Shown: in pieces, positions 65-61,670 of the stretch
Numbering within the stretch: the first letter of the stretch is position 1
Layout: the number at the start of each line of letters is the position of its first letter
Assembly (NCBI GenBank): GCA_963921795.1
Contig: OY997652.1
Coordinates: 55,425,838 to 55,489,837 of the forward strand
From: Nannobrachium achirus
Taxonomy: Eukaryota; Chordata; Actinopteri; Myctophiformes; Myctophidae
Direction of reading: 5' to 3'
DNA length: 64,000 bases
Program-made: the position numbers and the translations under genes
Notes under the pieces: model-generated
Databases searched by the model: none
Told to the model about the DNA's origin: nothing
Seen by the model: only the letters and a program-made list of their open reading frames with translations

Positions 65-3000
65 GTATGTATCAATAAAACATGGTGTGTTGATACTGTG
101 TGTAGCTCTGGGGTTTTACAAATGGATACATTACATTGTAGCCTATAATGTTTAGATTTGACATAACGTTTTCTGTTCCCCAGTGGTGTAAACGAAGTAG
201 ATGTAGGCTACTTTATAAAGTACAATTTGCAGGTAGCCTACTTTTACCTTACTGTTACTGGAGTAGGGTAGGCTATGTTAAATTGTCTGTACTTTTACTT
301 TTACTCCACTACATATCACAGACAAATATTGTAGGCTACTTTTACTCCACTACAGAAAAGTACTTGTTACTTTTCAAGTTAAATTATTATATTATAAAAC
401 ATAGTACTTCAGTCCTATTTATACTTATGCTATTTTCAAACGTTTTAGTACTTTTACTTTACTTCAAGTATATTTCGATTCCAATACTTTTGTGCTTTTA
501 CTCAAGTACATGTTGAAGTCCGGTCTTTTACTTTAGAGTATTTCTATATTGCAGCAGTGTTGATACGTGTGTCACCACTGCTTTCCCCCCCATGCTCTGT
601 TGTCAGTCAGTCAGTCTCCATGTGCTGCCTGTGGGTGATGAAGTTTGCCTGTGGACAGGTTTGGTTGGTGTTGTTGGGACAGTTAAATGTATAGCCTACA
701 CTTTAATCTCCTCAGTGTTTATTTAACCCTCGCAGTGTGTGAGTGTGTACACACATTGCTGGAGCGTTGATTATGTGTGTAACCAGGGGCGTCACAAGGG
801 GTAGGAAAGTGGGACTGAGTTACTGGGGCCCCAAGGTGGAGGGGCCCTAATAACTTTATCTATTGAAAAATAGCAGATATACAAGCTCACAGGTGCCGCG
901 CTGTGAGCTTGTAGATCTGCTATTTTTGAAAAAGTCGTGAAAATGTGTGCAAATCTTTGAATATATGTATTTTCAAAGCGAACGTTTGTAACTCAAATTT
1001 TGCTTCTGGGTGGTCCCTGGAACTAAATATTTTGAAATGGGGGTCCGTGGCCAAATAAATATAATTTTGGGGGTCCTTCACATGAAAAGGTTTGAGCACC
1101 ACTGACATAGTAGTCTCAAGAACAGACTAACTGAGCTCCAGTCAAGTGAAAAGGACCTTTTCTTTCAGATTGCTGACATAGAAACATAGGTTTTTTCCAA
1201 AAACCTTGGAAGGATTCAAAAGACACTTATAGAATCGGGTCAAAATTCTAATTTTCACGATTTTTCAAAAATAGCAGATCTACAAGCTCGCAGCGCGGCA
1301 CCGAGTGCCGCGCTGCGAGCTTGTAGATCTGCTATTTTTTTATATTTAAAGCATAAAATATCGGGTCATAATGTGTTCAGGCCTAAATGGGTTAACACAG
1401 AGGATTTTTACTGTGTAGCTTATGTGTGTAACTGACTGCATGTTGGCTGTGTGTTTCTAGGAAACTGAAACTTGGTGAGTTTTGAGAGATAAGGAAATAA
1501 CGGTTGTACTGTAGGCCTATCCTCAGTGTACCGATGTAACCACATTTAGTCTGTTTGGTTATATCTGCACACTCTCAGAGTTGAATTAACACACGAGTAT
1601 GTTATATATGTCTACTCTTCCATTTTGAAATTTAGATTCTGGCGTCAGGTAGGAAATAGGGATGGGATGATACGCGATATTATCGTTTATCGTGATTAAA
1701 AAAACACTCACGGTAATCGTATCGTGGGGATCAATTCACCTTTTATTTGCCAAGCTGCATATTCGGTACCACTTAAACCCTCTAGAATTGGTAAAAGGTA
1801 CTTATAATATAAATACTTGATACAGTCTATTTTCACTTTCTTTCAAAGGACTTTGCCAATAAATAGCCGATCTACAAGCTCACAACGCAACGTCATGTTG
1901 TGACGCAATGTGACGCGTTGTGAGCCGCCCCAGGATAATGGATTTTGATTAACGCGATAATATCGTAAATCGTGATTTATTTTGTTCCATCGTGTTATGA
2001 ATTTTTCATATCGTCCCATCCCTTGGGACCTTCTGCTTAACAGGTAGTAGGCTGTTTACTGCCTTGAGCTCATAAGCCCAATATCTCCCTTGTCTGTGTT
2101 GCCTCTTGGAAGAGTGGTAGAAATGTGGTCTCCTGAATGGGAGACACAGGTTCGAATCCCGGGTTTAGGACAAGAAAGAGACTCATGGATTGTGGCTTTG
2201 TCGGTTGAAAAACAATTGTAGAAATACATAGGTTGCCTAAAACCAAAACAGTGCACCCTTTTGGGAGAGATGTTAGTTTCATTATTAAGTATTTATCTGG
2301 TAGTTCAGTCCATACTCATGGGAAGTCGTTGAAGACTTTGCCACAAAATACCCATTTCAAAATCTACTTTTTCAGCCCATATATTTTCTGACAGTGGCAT
2401 GTCACTCCTTTTTTCCCTAAATATCTCCTCCCCCGAACGTTTGCCCCAGAACAGAGATGCTATGGTTCATGTGGTTAACTTGAACGTCCCTGCATATTCT
2501 CAGTGGTTCTCTACACAGTGACAGAGCTGTCAGTGACGGACATTGTGACGTGTTCCTGCTCTCTTGTCCAAGGCTGGGAGCTGCAATCACAAATTTGTTA
2601 TGTCCTATCTGGGAATCAAACCTGGGTCTCACGTGTTAGACACCAATGTGCCGCTTATCCATGAAGCTGCTTGGCTAATAGGGACATATTGACACCAGTG
2701 TCAGTCTAGTGTAAGTGTAAGTGTAGGGCAATGGTTCTCAAACATTTTCATGTCAAGGACCACCAAATTTACACCCGCAAGGACCCCCAGGTTTCACATC
2801 AATTAGGCAGCGGACCCCCATTTTGTCATTTCTATCTCTGGGACCCCAATTTATTTTGTAAAATCAATGTCAATTTAAGTGTACAAATGGAACCAAAGGG
2901 ACCCATTAGTGTCCATTCAGTTGCTAACTATCTATCATTTAGCTGGGGACCTCCTGGAACTCCCTCAAGGACCCCTGGGGAGTCCCTGACCCCACTTTGA

Positions 3001-6000
3001 GAACCACAGGTGTAGGGAGACCACCTCCAACCACTGCAGATGTACTAGTTATTTTGTATTATAACCTCTTATACAGATTGCCAGGTTAACATGTTTTGTT
3101 CATTAAAATAACCTACGGATTGCAGATTTGACATTTTGAAATTAGGTTTAACATCATGGCTCGTTCAAATACATGTCCACACACAGTCAGAGTTGAGACT
3201 TAAAGGGATATTACACTTTCAAAAAACTTTTTGTCATTGTATGGTCTAATCAGGCTTGTATGAACACCCTGAACAGTTTTTAGTTTTCTTCATTCAGTAT
3301 TTAGATATTTGATGTAAAAGTTATCTGGCCCTCCAGGACCAGGGCCTCTCCCCACACACACTCATTGTAACTTCAAACTCCATTTTAACCATGATAGATT
3401 CATTAAAAATACCCATTATTTTTTCTGGTGACTCAAACTACCCTCCTAATACGTGAGCAGGCCGTGTTTTTTCCATAACGTTTTTCATGTATTTTTAATA
3501 ATTCTTTGTGAAAATGGAAAAAATTAAATACAATAAAAATATATAAAAAATACATGACAAACGTTATGGAAAAAACACAGCCTGCTCACGTACTAGGAGG
3601 GTATTATGAGTCACCAGAAAAAATAATGGGTATTTTTAATGAATCTATCATGGTTAAAATGGAGTTTGAAGTTACAATGAGTGTGTGTGGGGAGAGGCAT
3701 GGGCGTGTTGGGCCTGGTAACTTTTACATCAAATATCTAAATACTGAATGAAGAAAATTAAAAACTGTTCAGGGTGTTCATACAAGCCTGATTAGACCAT
3801 ACAATGACAAAAAGTGTTTTTGAAAGTGGAATATCCCTTTAATAAGTGGCCTATGTTGCAAGTGCAACAAGCTACTGTATAGCAACCCACATGCTTTAGC
3901 CTACTTTCATAACAGCAAACGTTTTGTAATAGTGTCATTATGTTACAAAGGGCTTAGTGGCCTCTCTATCTTGTTTGGCGTGGAAATGATTCATATGATT
4001 GATTCAGATGATTTCAGTCCTGCATGTATAGGGATAGGACGATAAGTGATATTATCGTTTATCGTGCCAAAAAACACTCACGATAACCGTATCGTGGCAT
4101 TTTAATGTATCGTGAAATCGTCCTCCGTCAAATCTCCCTCTTTCGAACGACCGTCATTTCGACAAAGGAGCATCGGGAGGGTTAGCGACTCACCCCACAG
4201 AGGTTACTTAGGTTTAGGGTAAGGGTTAGAGCTGGGTATCGAACGGAACAGATGACACGTAGTAACAGCGAAATGCTCCCGTCATGCACTGGCATCAATT
4301 CACCTTTTATTTGCCGAGCTGCATATTCGGTACCATTTAAAACTCTATTTGTAAAACGTACTTATAATGTACATACTTGATAGTCTTTTATTTTTTTCAC
4401 TCTATAAATAAATAGCCGATCTACAAGTTGTGAGCTTGTAGCTTCTTTTGTCACAATAATCGTGATATGACCTTTTTGTATCGTCCTGTCCATAGTCCTG
4501 TATGACGTGCATGGTTTTGGTTTGGTCATGTCAGCCGCTATAGGAGGAGAAGCTCTGAGCACACTTTTACACAGGATGTTGAAGTGTCATTTCCTTCCAT
4601 CTAGATTACTATCAACACACAATCATGTGGTTTTTGACAACACAGAATCAGAGTATTCACACACAGTAAAACCCTCACGATATTCATGTGATATTCACTA
4701 CTCTAGTCTAGCCTCATTCTCAGTAGTAGAGGATGAAATTAACAGCCAGGTAAGCAGCAATCTGAGTTCCCAGAGGTTCTTTTTCTCGCCACTAGGGGGG
4801 CGAGAAGAAAGGTAAGCAGTGGTGGAAAAAATACTCACATTTTTTACTTAACTAAAAGTATCAATACTGGATTGTAGAAGTACTCCGTTACAAGTAGAAG
4901 TACGGAATTCAAAATGTACTTGAGTAAAAGTATGAAAGTGTTGGCATCATCATTACTTAAAGCACCAAAAGTAAAAGTACAAAATGTTTGAAAATAGCAG
5001 ATCTACAAGCTCACAACGCGTCGCGATGCGACGTGTTGTGAGCTTGTAGATTGGCCATTTTCAAATAGCCTAGGTATAAAATAGGGCTAAAGTGGTTTAT
5101 CTATGTTTTATAATAATATCATAATTGATATCTGCAAAGTAACTAGCAACTAAAGTTTTCAAATAAATGTAGTGGAGTAAAAGTACAATATTTGGATCCG
5201 AAATGTCGTGGAGTAGAAGTAAAAGTATTGGAAATTGGAAATACTCAAGTAAAGTACCTACAAATAACTCAAAAGTGTACTTAAGTACAGTACTCAAGTA
5301 AATGTACTTAGTTACTTTACACCACTGCAGGTAAGGTAACAATAAATGCAACTGAAATGCGACATGGGAACACGTCAACAAATGTCACACAATGTCGCAG
5401 TGTGAGGCAGAAGTGGAGGACCCAGGAGCAGAACACAGCAGGCAGGCATATGAAGTTGATCAATAGTGATGTATTAACAATGAGCAGGAAACACAAGGAA
5501 GTATAGACTGGGACACTAAACTATACTGGGAAATACTAAACTAGGGGAAAGACACACTCACAGAAGACATTATGATAAACAGGCTTACAGCAAGGTTACG
5601 TAGACAGGAACACACAGCAACATGGACTATAACCCGACAAGGTAACACACAGGGAGGTTTAAATAGACACTGACTAGACATGATTGGTTGAAAGACTAAC
5701 GATACACAGGTGGTGAACATGACTAATCAGTGATGTGTGACAAGACAGGTAACAGTTAAAGGTACAAACCTAACAATACAAACATGACACACAATAGGAA
5801 ACATATCCGGGGACAAAGCGTTCCAACACAATGCAACAGAGCACAAGACTAACACAACAGTAAAGTCAGTCAAATCAAGTGGAGACACAGCCGCCACCAA
5901 ATTAAGTGATGGGGGTGTAGCTAGTAGCCTGTGCAGCGTTCAATTTGTAAACAGAGGGGGACATATTCGCTCACTCAAGCCCTATACTCCTTCATATGAC

Positions 6001-61316: not shown

Positions 61317-61624
61317 TATAGGGTGTCCATAATATACACTATCAGAGTTATGGTGGTCCTTGCAAATAAAACATTTGAGAACAACTAGTACTCATGTGCC
61401 ATAATGTCATAGTAAATCAGTGTCATACTGTACATATCCTGAAGAAAACGTGAAGACATTCAGTTATTGGGTCTTTGTCTGTGTACAGACATATTGATGA
61501 CGCCTGATGATGATAATAATTTGGTCCCACGGTTTAAGACGGATGGATATTAATCTGGTCACAACTTCTGACCACTTACACACAGTGTTCAGTCAGGGAG
61601 GGGTTCAGTTAGTTTCTCTCACCA

Positions 61625-61670
61625 GTGAAAATAGCCGCTCCACAAGCTCACAACATGTCACATCACAATT
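61625..61670. repeat. Half hairpin in the receptor copy 4 5' flank
   Basis: GTGAAAATAGCCGCTCCACA and AGCTCACAACATGTCAC. Reduced relics of the same half are at 51894-51916 (copy 3) and about 46522-46548 (copy 2). Confidence 0.5.

Follow-up and report, generated by a model that had tools for sequence, protein, structure and literature searches.

Here, we describe a short palindromic hairpin that recurs through a 64,000-nucleotide stretch of the genome of the fish Nannobrachium achirus (GenBank assembly GCA_963921795.1, contig OY997652.1, positions 55,425,838 to 55,489,837 of the forward strand; hereafter, the window), where it lies inside several families of miniature inverted-repeat transposable elements (MITEs). 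On balance, and with modest confidence, we think that the hairpin is probably a long-lived palindromic cassette carried in MITEs, that is, a passenger which is kept palindromic by replication errors and is not presently mobile.

The hairpin is a 77-base near-perfect palindrome, with individual copies of 72–77 nt. The initial annotation had listed 12 good copies and counted 40 or more; all 12 were recovered and align as one palindrome, and searching the window with a profile made from these 12 gives 40 places at E ≤ 1e-3, the first at 866–927 and the last at 61626–61662. By score, 37 of these reach at least 20 bits, 23 at least 40, and 15 at least 60, the 25 places below 60 bits being decayed; some damaged copies have lost the centre and kept both feet (e.g., 10575–10633, 26511–26567, and 60487–60526). 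The same profile has no matches in five Markov-1 windows, in one Markov-1 200-kb stretch, or in reversed real sequence. At E ≤ 1, a covariance model of the hairpin gives 76 strand-matches across the window.

The abundance of the hairpin is not special to this window. A sample of 20 stretches of 10 kb each, taken at round positions on 20 contigs (200 kb; labels such as L002:323 denote loci outside the window, with the position after the colon), contains 65 places of at least 20 bits, 39 of at least 40, and 23 of at least 60, with 0 to 9 per stretch and a near-complete hairpin about once per 9 kb. Extrapolated from this small sample to the assembly of 1,658,514,493 bases, the numbers would be approximately 540,000, 320,000, and 190,000 places, respectively. 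As single-stranded DNA, a copy from host family F5 folds far more stably than its shuffles (z −15).

Searches elsewhere gave little. Rfam has no match to the hairpin at gathering scores, and a 20-mer from it has no match in a collection of genome contigs; plasmid sequences gave no match either. A 15-mer occurs in 111 stretches of viral contigs, once in each of the 80 matches listed, so that there is no palindrome among those 80. Six 15–16-mers from the arms do not occur in any of 5.39 million papers, which says little about repeat libraries, and among the papers listed by literature searches none was seen to describe this hairpin (Repbase and most subscription papers fall outside that scope).

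An independently mobile element might be expected at dispersed, unrepeated sites, and the near-complete copies are not found there. There are 38 such copies (15 in the window and 23 in the sample). For 36, all available 120-bp flanks recur at other places in about 300 kb of local sequence (among these, L011:1 offers a single flank), for two, one of two flanks recurs, and no copy is without a recurring flank; the same test at 200 random positions gave 69 with all flanks repeated, 65 with one, and 66 with none. Decayed hairpins without an assigned host do exist (e.g., L010:2704, L018:1495, and L024:5785), and these may therefore be old solo insertions. The initial annotation had supposed that the hairpin either is itself mobile or spreads between MITE families. 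Spread between families is visible as nesting and junctions, described below; present mobility finds no such backing, given the absence of copies from unrepeated DNA and the grouping of three of four empty sites with filled ones.

What the host families share is the hairpin itself. Across 14 flank-family representatives, identity is 0.4–1.0 at nearly all stem positions and 0.22–0.39 past the first outside base; homology between families thus ends at the hairpin edges. Exact single-TA sites place the ends of the unit at GTG...CAC, with TA on each side. The third base outside the stem pairs with its counterpart in 13 of the 14 representatives, but as the best of many positions this is only suggestive, and it may be old stem.

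Between families, 18 of the 39 stem pairs are changed on both sides, versus 3–7 in slid controls; covariation shuffles average 10.2 and none of 500 reaches 18, with the caveat that relatedness can exceed what shuffles reproduce. For family A, 84 oriented hairpins were gathered, of which 79 are full length (five were dropped): 60 have the default form, in which the arms differ at two fixed marks and the apex is CGA, 17 are changed in other ways, and two have the reverse-complement apex TCG. In one of the two (window 1267), the inverted apex is accompanied by both left-arm marks turned to right-arm letters, so that linked compensatory change and loop inversion, which together characterize a template switch, are found in a single copy; in the other (window 26157), one right-arm mark is turned to the left-arm letter.

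In the TA family, hosts with a TA on each flank, the apex likewise occurs in both orientations. Eight copies read have either the apex GGT (four) or its reverse complement ACC (four), whereas the outer arm marks keep their side. With the orientation set by the host flank and no more than one mismatch allowed in 50 bases, the genome has 5,105 places with GGT and, in the same orientation, 10,011 with ACC, whereas the backwards controls have none. Flank sites 21, 141, and 181 each make all four combinations with the apex; one inversion without recombination is therefore insufficient for this pattern. Stem covariation, inverted apices, and the linked rewriting of arms suggest template switching, whose role in maintaining and rewriting the palindrome is supported. 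The initial annotation had named template switching or conversion as a route between MITE families; the support for template switching concerns the upkeep of the palindrome, and between families, nesting and junctions are what can be seen.

The hosts and hairpins of the window that are needed in what follows are given here, with the strand where one is assigned.

784..1395, + strand: composite MITE with hAT-type left end CAGGGGCGTCACA, two hairpins, and TTAA-type right end TAGGCCTAAATGGGTTAA
866..927: family A 5' hairpin, centre-shortened
1267..1339: near-complete family A 3' hairpin, apex inverted (TCG)
1658..2023: host F8, AGGGATGGGATGA...TCGTCCCATCCCT, with a rearranged hairpin at 1861–1925
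4817..5327: host F6, CAGTGGTGGAAAAA...CACCACTG, target site duplication (TSD) 7/8, hairpin at 4989–5062
6853..7277: host F10, CAATGGTTGTCAACC...GGTTGAAAACCAC, TSD not found, partial hairpin at 6972–7020
9478..9550: near-complete hairpin of family A type in a hAT-type host
17869..17941: near-complete hairpin, family A
18465..18730, + strand: TA-flanked module ATATTGTCGTTG...CGACGATAT, hairpin at 18547–18620, apex GGT, TA on both sides
19562..19635: near-complete hairpin between F10 flank b and another flank, X (GTCGACAAGTCGACT...)
19953..20215, + strand: TA-flanked module, hairpin at 20035–20108, apex ACC
20868..20940: near-complete hairpin in an F9-type host
23011..23461: host F4, CAGGGGTCTTTAAC...GTTGAAGACCCCTG, TSD CTTTAAGA 8/8, hairpin at 23255–23327
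25640..25903, − strand: TA-flanked module ATATCGTCGTTGTCGGG..., hairpin at 25754–25827, apex ACC in host orientation
26157..26229: near-complete family A 5' hairpin, apex inverted (TCG)
27450..27522: near-complete hairpin, family A
27717..27789: near-complete hairpin, family A, with a hAT-type outer flank
30191..30583: host F9 (matched stretch), hairpin at 30249–30321
33712..34106: hAT-type host CAGGGACGTGCTGG...CCAGCACGTCCCTG, TSD TTTGGTGC 8/8, with a cut TA module and part of a hairpin at 33964–34005
34709..35099: host F5, TAGGGCTGTCACGA...TTGTGACAGCCCTA, TSD 7/8, hairpin at 34923–34995
50575..50620: decayed hairpin within an old TA-module relative, forming with 60011–60068 the outermost pair of the midpoint-rooted tree
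60011..60068: decayed hairpin within an old TA-module relative

About ten families with hAT-type ends, one of TTAA type, and one flanked by TA carry the hairpin, which bears out the initial count of at least eight different MITE families; the hosts are about 260–735 bp long. The host ends named by the initial annotation are all present, and its list of unrelated ends needs one correction: the ATATCGTCG type is itself a nested module, and hence two of the hAT-type hosts have no hairpin apart from the one that this module brings. Its statement that the hairpin sits near the midpoint of three hosts does not stand, as the relative positions are 0.41 (4817), 0.62 (23011), and 0.64 (34709). In other hosts the position ranges from 0.18 to 0.69, and the TTAA element in L004 has two hairpins, at 0.13 and 0.85. 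The hairpin is internal in its hosts, not central.

Elements of the hAT superfamily have an 8-bp TSD and ends of the CAGNG/TAGNG type, and piggyBac-type elements have a TTAA duplication and CCC...GGG ends. Perfect 8-bp duplications together with matching ends are found around hosts that begin CAGGGTTCCCCAAT or CAGGGTTCTCCAAT, CAGGGACGTGCTGG, CAGGGACGTGCAGA, CAGTGGTTCCCAAA, CAGTGTTGATTTTG, TAGCGATGGGACGA, CAGTGGTTGTAAAG (other end CCACCACTG), CAGGGGTGTCGCAC, and CAGGGGTCTTTAAC; the host beginning TAGGGCTGTCACGA has 7/8. Eleven copies combine an 8/8 TSD with recognisable ends (L002:323, L016:6543, L019:2449, L022:5020, L023:2393, L025:5419, L026:6364, L028:6245, L028:7176, window 23011, and window 33712). 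Of 100 random positions, 13 also attain the score limit of the scan for TSDs and ends; rows with poor ends were therefore dropped, 8/8 TSD or not. Read by eye, L018 has an element CAGGGGCGTCACA...TGTGACGCCCCTG with two hairpins, flanked by two copies of CATAGACC. For F10 and X, no TSD was found.

The TTAA element is about 600 bp long, with ends TTAA + CCCATTTAGGCCTA...TAGGCCTAAATGGG and one hairpin close to each end. At eight loci, the right end GGGTTAA is present in all eight and the left end TTTAACCCA in three (L004, L006, and L008), the others differing or being cut there. The TA module is a 264-bp element (ATATCGTCGTTGTCGGG...) with TA on each flank. The hosts thus have the terminal inverted repeats and TSDs by which MITEs are recognized. 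By 8-bp TSD and end type, most would be hAT elements, and by TTAA duplication and ends, the TTAA host would be of piggyBac type, with the superfamily in each case read from ends and duplications only. As an aside, two hAT-A copies (L175:1501–1964 and L179:1501–2113) have flanking 8-mers that are out of register in CA-rich runs (CACATACA/CACACATA and CACACGCA/CACGCACA).

Two ways in which unlike hosts have come to share the hairpin can be seen. One is nesting: the 264-bp TA module lies in unlike flanks and within two different hAT-type families, and the end of the TTAA element, TTAACCCATTTAG with TTAA, lies within the hAT-type copies L028, L175, L178, and L179, where the direction of nesting is inferred. 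The other is joining at the hairpin. At L017:1522–1594, the left flank is that of family A and the right flank that of F4; window 784–1395 couples a hAT-type left end to a TTAA-type right end; and L022:8095 bears the 3' outer flank of the TTAA element at its 5' end, with the same outer flank at both ends. On the far side of the hairpin, F10 flank b is followed by F10.a in two copies (window 6972 and L023:8708), whereas in three others it is followed by X (window 19562, L012:2199, and L019:8326).

The initial annotation had reckoned with the outcome that no host family has relatives free of the hairpin; such relatives exist, and those read look like losses. In local sequence, 50 queries gave spanning matches, many of them still hairpin-bearing, and the candidates for hairpin-free relatives (12 + 5 aligned pairs) were set aside as centre deletions, remnants, or larger deletions. 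Its proposal to compare hosts with and without the hairpin at the same site did yield exact single-TA empties, in F5 and in the TA module, although no insertion is demonstrated by them and they are read as losses. The F5 empty, L188, reads ...CACTGATA joined directly to TTTCTGAC..., and the filled copy, L015, reads ...TTTGATA, then GTGGAAATAG...CTATTTCCAC, then TA, then TTTCGGAC..., a difference of 77 bases and one TA. The L188-type junction occurs at this sole place in the genome within 3 mismatches, and L188 was dropped as a candidate pre-insertion site on that ground. When joined F5 flanks were searched for (40 scored of 2,149 candidates), 16 copies were read, of which L188 is exact, L180 is nearly so, and the remaining 14 have arm remnants, filler, or lost flank letters. 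The corresponding search for hAT-A gave no contiguous match among 40 scored of 444 candidates, a weak negative because the query lacks about 16 bases that are present in L175–L179.

The single-TA junction of the TA module is present at 8 exact places and at 12 with one mismatch; a wider count of 305 places should not be taken as a number of empties, since among the 100 listed, many with 2–3 mismatches are the right edges of filled copies. Four empties were read. Three fall in one clade with five filled copies (support 94/96, just below the firm mark), the fourth is unplaced in the tree, and the branch of L199 is long and uncertain. With midpoint rooting, the outermost rows bear the hairpin. 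Mapped on the tree, presence or absence of the hairpin needs four changes (3–4 in bootstraps), of which firm branches force one, and all 500 label shuffles need as few, so that the label is no more clustered than when shuffled. The TA-module empties were dropped as candidates for the ancestral state after this tree, though it does not force several losses. We read them as probable clean losses at the base of the stem, one or more in number.

For a cassette that rides in MITEs, copy number would come from transposition of the hosts and not of the hairpin. The stem would fold when single-stranded in replication; a polymerase that switches to the opposite arm would keep the palindrome, invert the apex, and spread arm changes, and one that skips the stem would lose the hairpin. 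Hairpins of neighbouring MITEs would also offer about 75 bp of homology for joining, by which end sets and interiors could be reshuffled. In two hosts the hairpin has TA on each side, and this suggests, as a presumed first step, that the cassette may once have been a 77-bp fold-back element inserting at TA.

Several points weigh against this account. Inverted apices amount to just 2 of 79 in family A, a set that consists mostly of the best matches to window 1200–1400 and is not a random sample; the arm change in window 26157 could be a CpG mutation, and four non-inverted copies carry the same change. The GGT and ACC counts stand without a control for a third apex word. In L025 (F7) and L026 (F8), pairing continues for several bases into the host-specific letters GTTGCRTGCT and TTTGCCAA, respectively; arm copying would account for this, but so would insertion into an older palindrome. 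Of the exact or near-exact empties, which number at least 20, only 4 have been read, on a tree rooted at its midpoint, and the empties may have a single origin, since firm branches force one change, the label is unclustered, and the clade has 94/96 support. No pre-insertion copy that would show how the founders acquired the hairpin was found for any host; in F4 and F6–F9, no nested element was seen round the hairpin, and its edges lack TA...TA.

The hairpin could instead be a 77-bp mobile element in its own right, one that inserts at TA, duplicates it, and either prefers MITEs or survives only there. We rate this as possible but unlikely. TA directly on both sides in the TA-module copies and one F5 copy (L015:4092), the exact-end single-TA empties (8 in the TA module, 1 in F5), and the near-identical termini GTGAAAACAG and GTGGAAATAG are what one would expect of such an element; against it are the flank test (none of the 38 near-complete copies lies in unrepeated DNA), the three of four empties that group with filled copies, the isolation of the exact F5 empty within 3 mismatches, and the lack of TA...TA in register in F4, F6, F7, and F8. 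A broader proposal, which we find quite doubtful, is a 77-bp non-coding nuclear fold-back element in MITEs of several transposase superfamilies that would insert at TA in other transposons, stay palindromic via template switching, and serve as a joint for end exchange driving the birth of MITE families.

Descent of all hosts from one hairpin-bearing ancestor, with ends exchanged repeatedly, strikes us as improbable. End exchange at hairpins is indeed visible (L017:1522, F10/X, L022:8095, and window 784–1395), but the hosts differ in their target duplication (8 bp, TTAA, or TA), the 14 families compared have little in common beyond the hairpin, and there are one or two hairpins per host, at very different places. 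Selection on an RNA product, such as a small RNA or an editing substrate, might likewise keep a stem, and both the strong fold and the pairs changed on both sides, then read as RNA compensation, would agree with it; single copies with an inverted apex and rewritten arms would not be expected, however, and with no Rfam match at gathering scores and 25 of the 40 window places decayed, we give this explanation very little chance. The passenger cassette, rewritten by replication errors, is the reading that we retain.

Other features touch on the hairpin or lie between its copies. Two hairpins 932 bp apart (L007:415–469 and L007:1347–1401) have identical 30-bp flanks, showing a local duplication that contains the hairpin. 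In the window, 50419–51308 and 59859–60770, about 9.4 kb apart, have in common a decayed relative of the TA module with an F4 element after it, an arrangement that resembles part of a segmental duplication. Long inverted repeats outside the hairpin list lie at 32351–32841 and 3344–3698, with arms of 216 and 164 bp that are 94–95% complementary and separated by short spacers. Genes of a repeated 7-transmembrane receptor family, whose N-termini carry long repeats rich in Ser/Thr/Pro, lie at 41371–42810 (−), 46650–48083 (+), 51990–53220 (+), and 63204–63749 (+). The former two match Pfam 7tm_1 (E 3e-32 and 7e-31), the third is split over two frames, and the N-terminal repeat alone of the last is visible before the window ends. 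The sole Rfam match in the window at gathering score is a UnaL2 LINE 3' tail at 25327–25381 (+).

With thousands of copies in known orientation, the hairpin provides a natural experiment on how a eukaryotic nucleus makes errors in replicating a stem, in which apex inversion, arm rewriting, and clean loss can each be read by a simple pattern count. It also offers a concrete route by which unlike MITE families can share a core and swap ends.

Among known systems, Angel is reportedly a palindromic DNA element of zebrafish (Izsvak, 1999). A figure legend names Angel as an internal element of the hAT transposon Tol2 (PMC8151067), and it is presented elsewhere as a stem-forming, high-copy zebrafish family with compensatory changes in two long non-coding RNA (lncRNA) copies (PMC3636048). 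As described there, Angel resembles our hairpin in being nuclear, stem-forming, and high in copy number, with long inverted repeats and one case inside a hAT element; compared by description only, the difference is that here one 77-bp stem is common to about a dozen host families. A shared core finds its best parallel in the highly conserved domains of SINEs, of which the V domain is also found in the MITE MER6 (PMC6887750). Like the hairpin, the V domain is a conserved internal segment that rides in elements of different origin, but the abstract of that work does not describe palindromes, and arm rewriting and apex inversion are features of the present case.

Palindromes of Volvox and a mobile hairpin family of yeast mitochondria are said to exist as well. 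Among organellar hairpin elements are the RHE of sponge mitochondria (PMC2800124). From what that account gives, these are similar in being small, dispersed, hairpin-forming repeats that spread in a genome; they are organellar, however, whereas ours is nuclear and lies in transposons with identified ends and target duplications. The marks of template switching given in a published account are multi-base compensation, stem extension, and inverted loops (PMC8794818). Those marks, as set out there, recur here, the difference being that the account deals with RNA genes and few loop inversions, and here there are thousands of copies of one transposon-borne palindrome.

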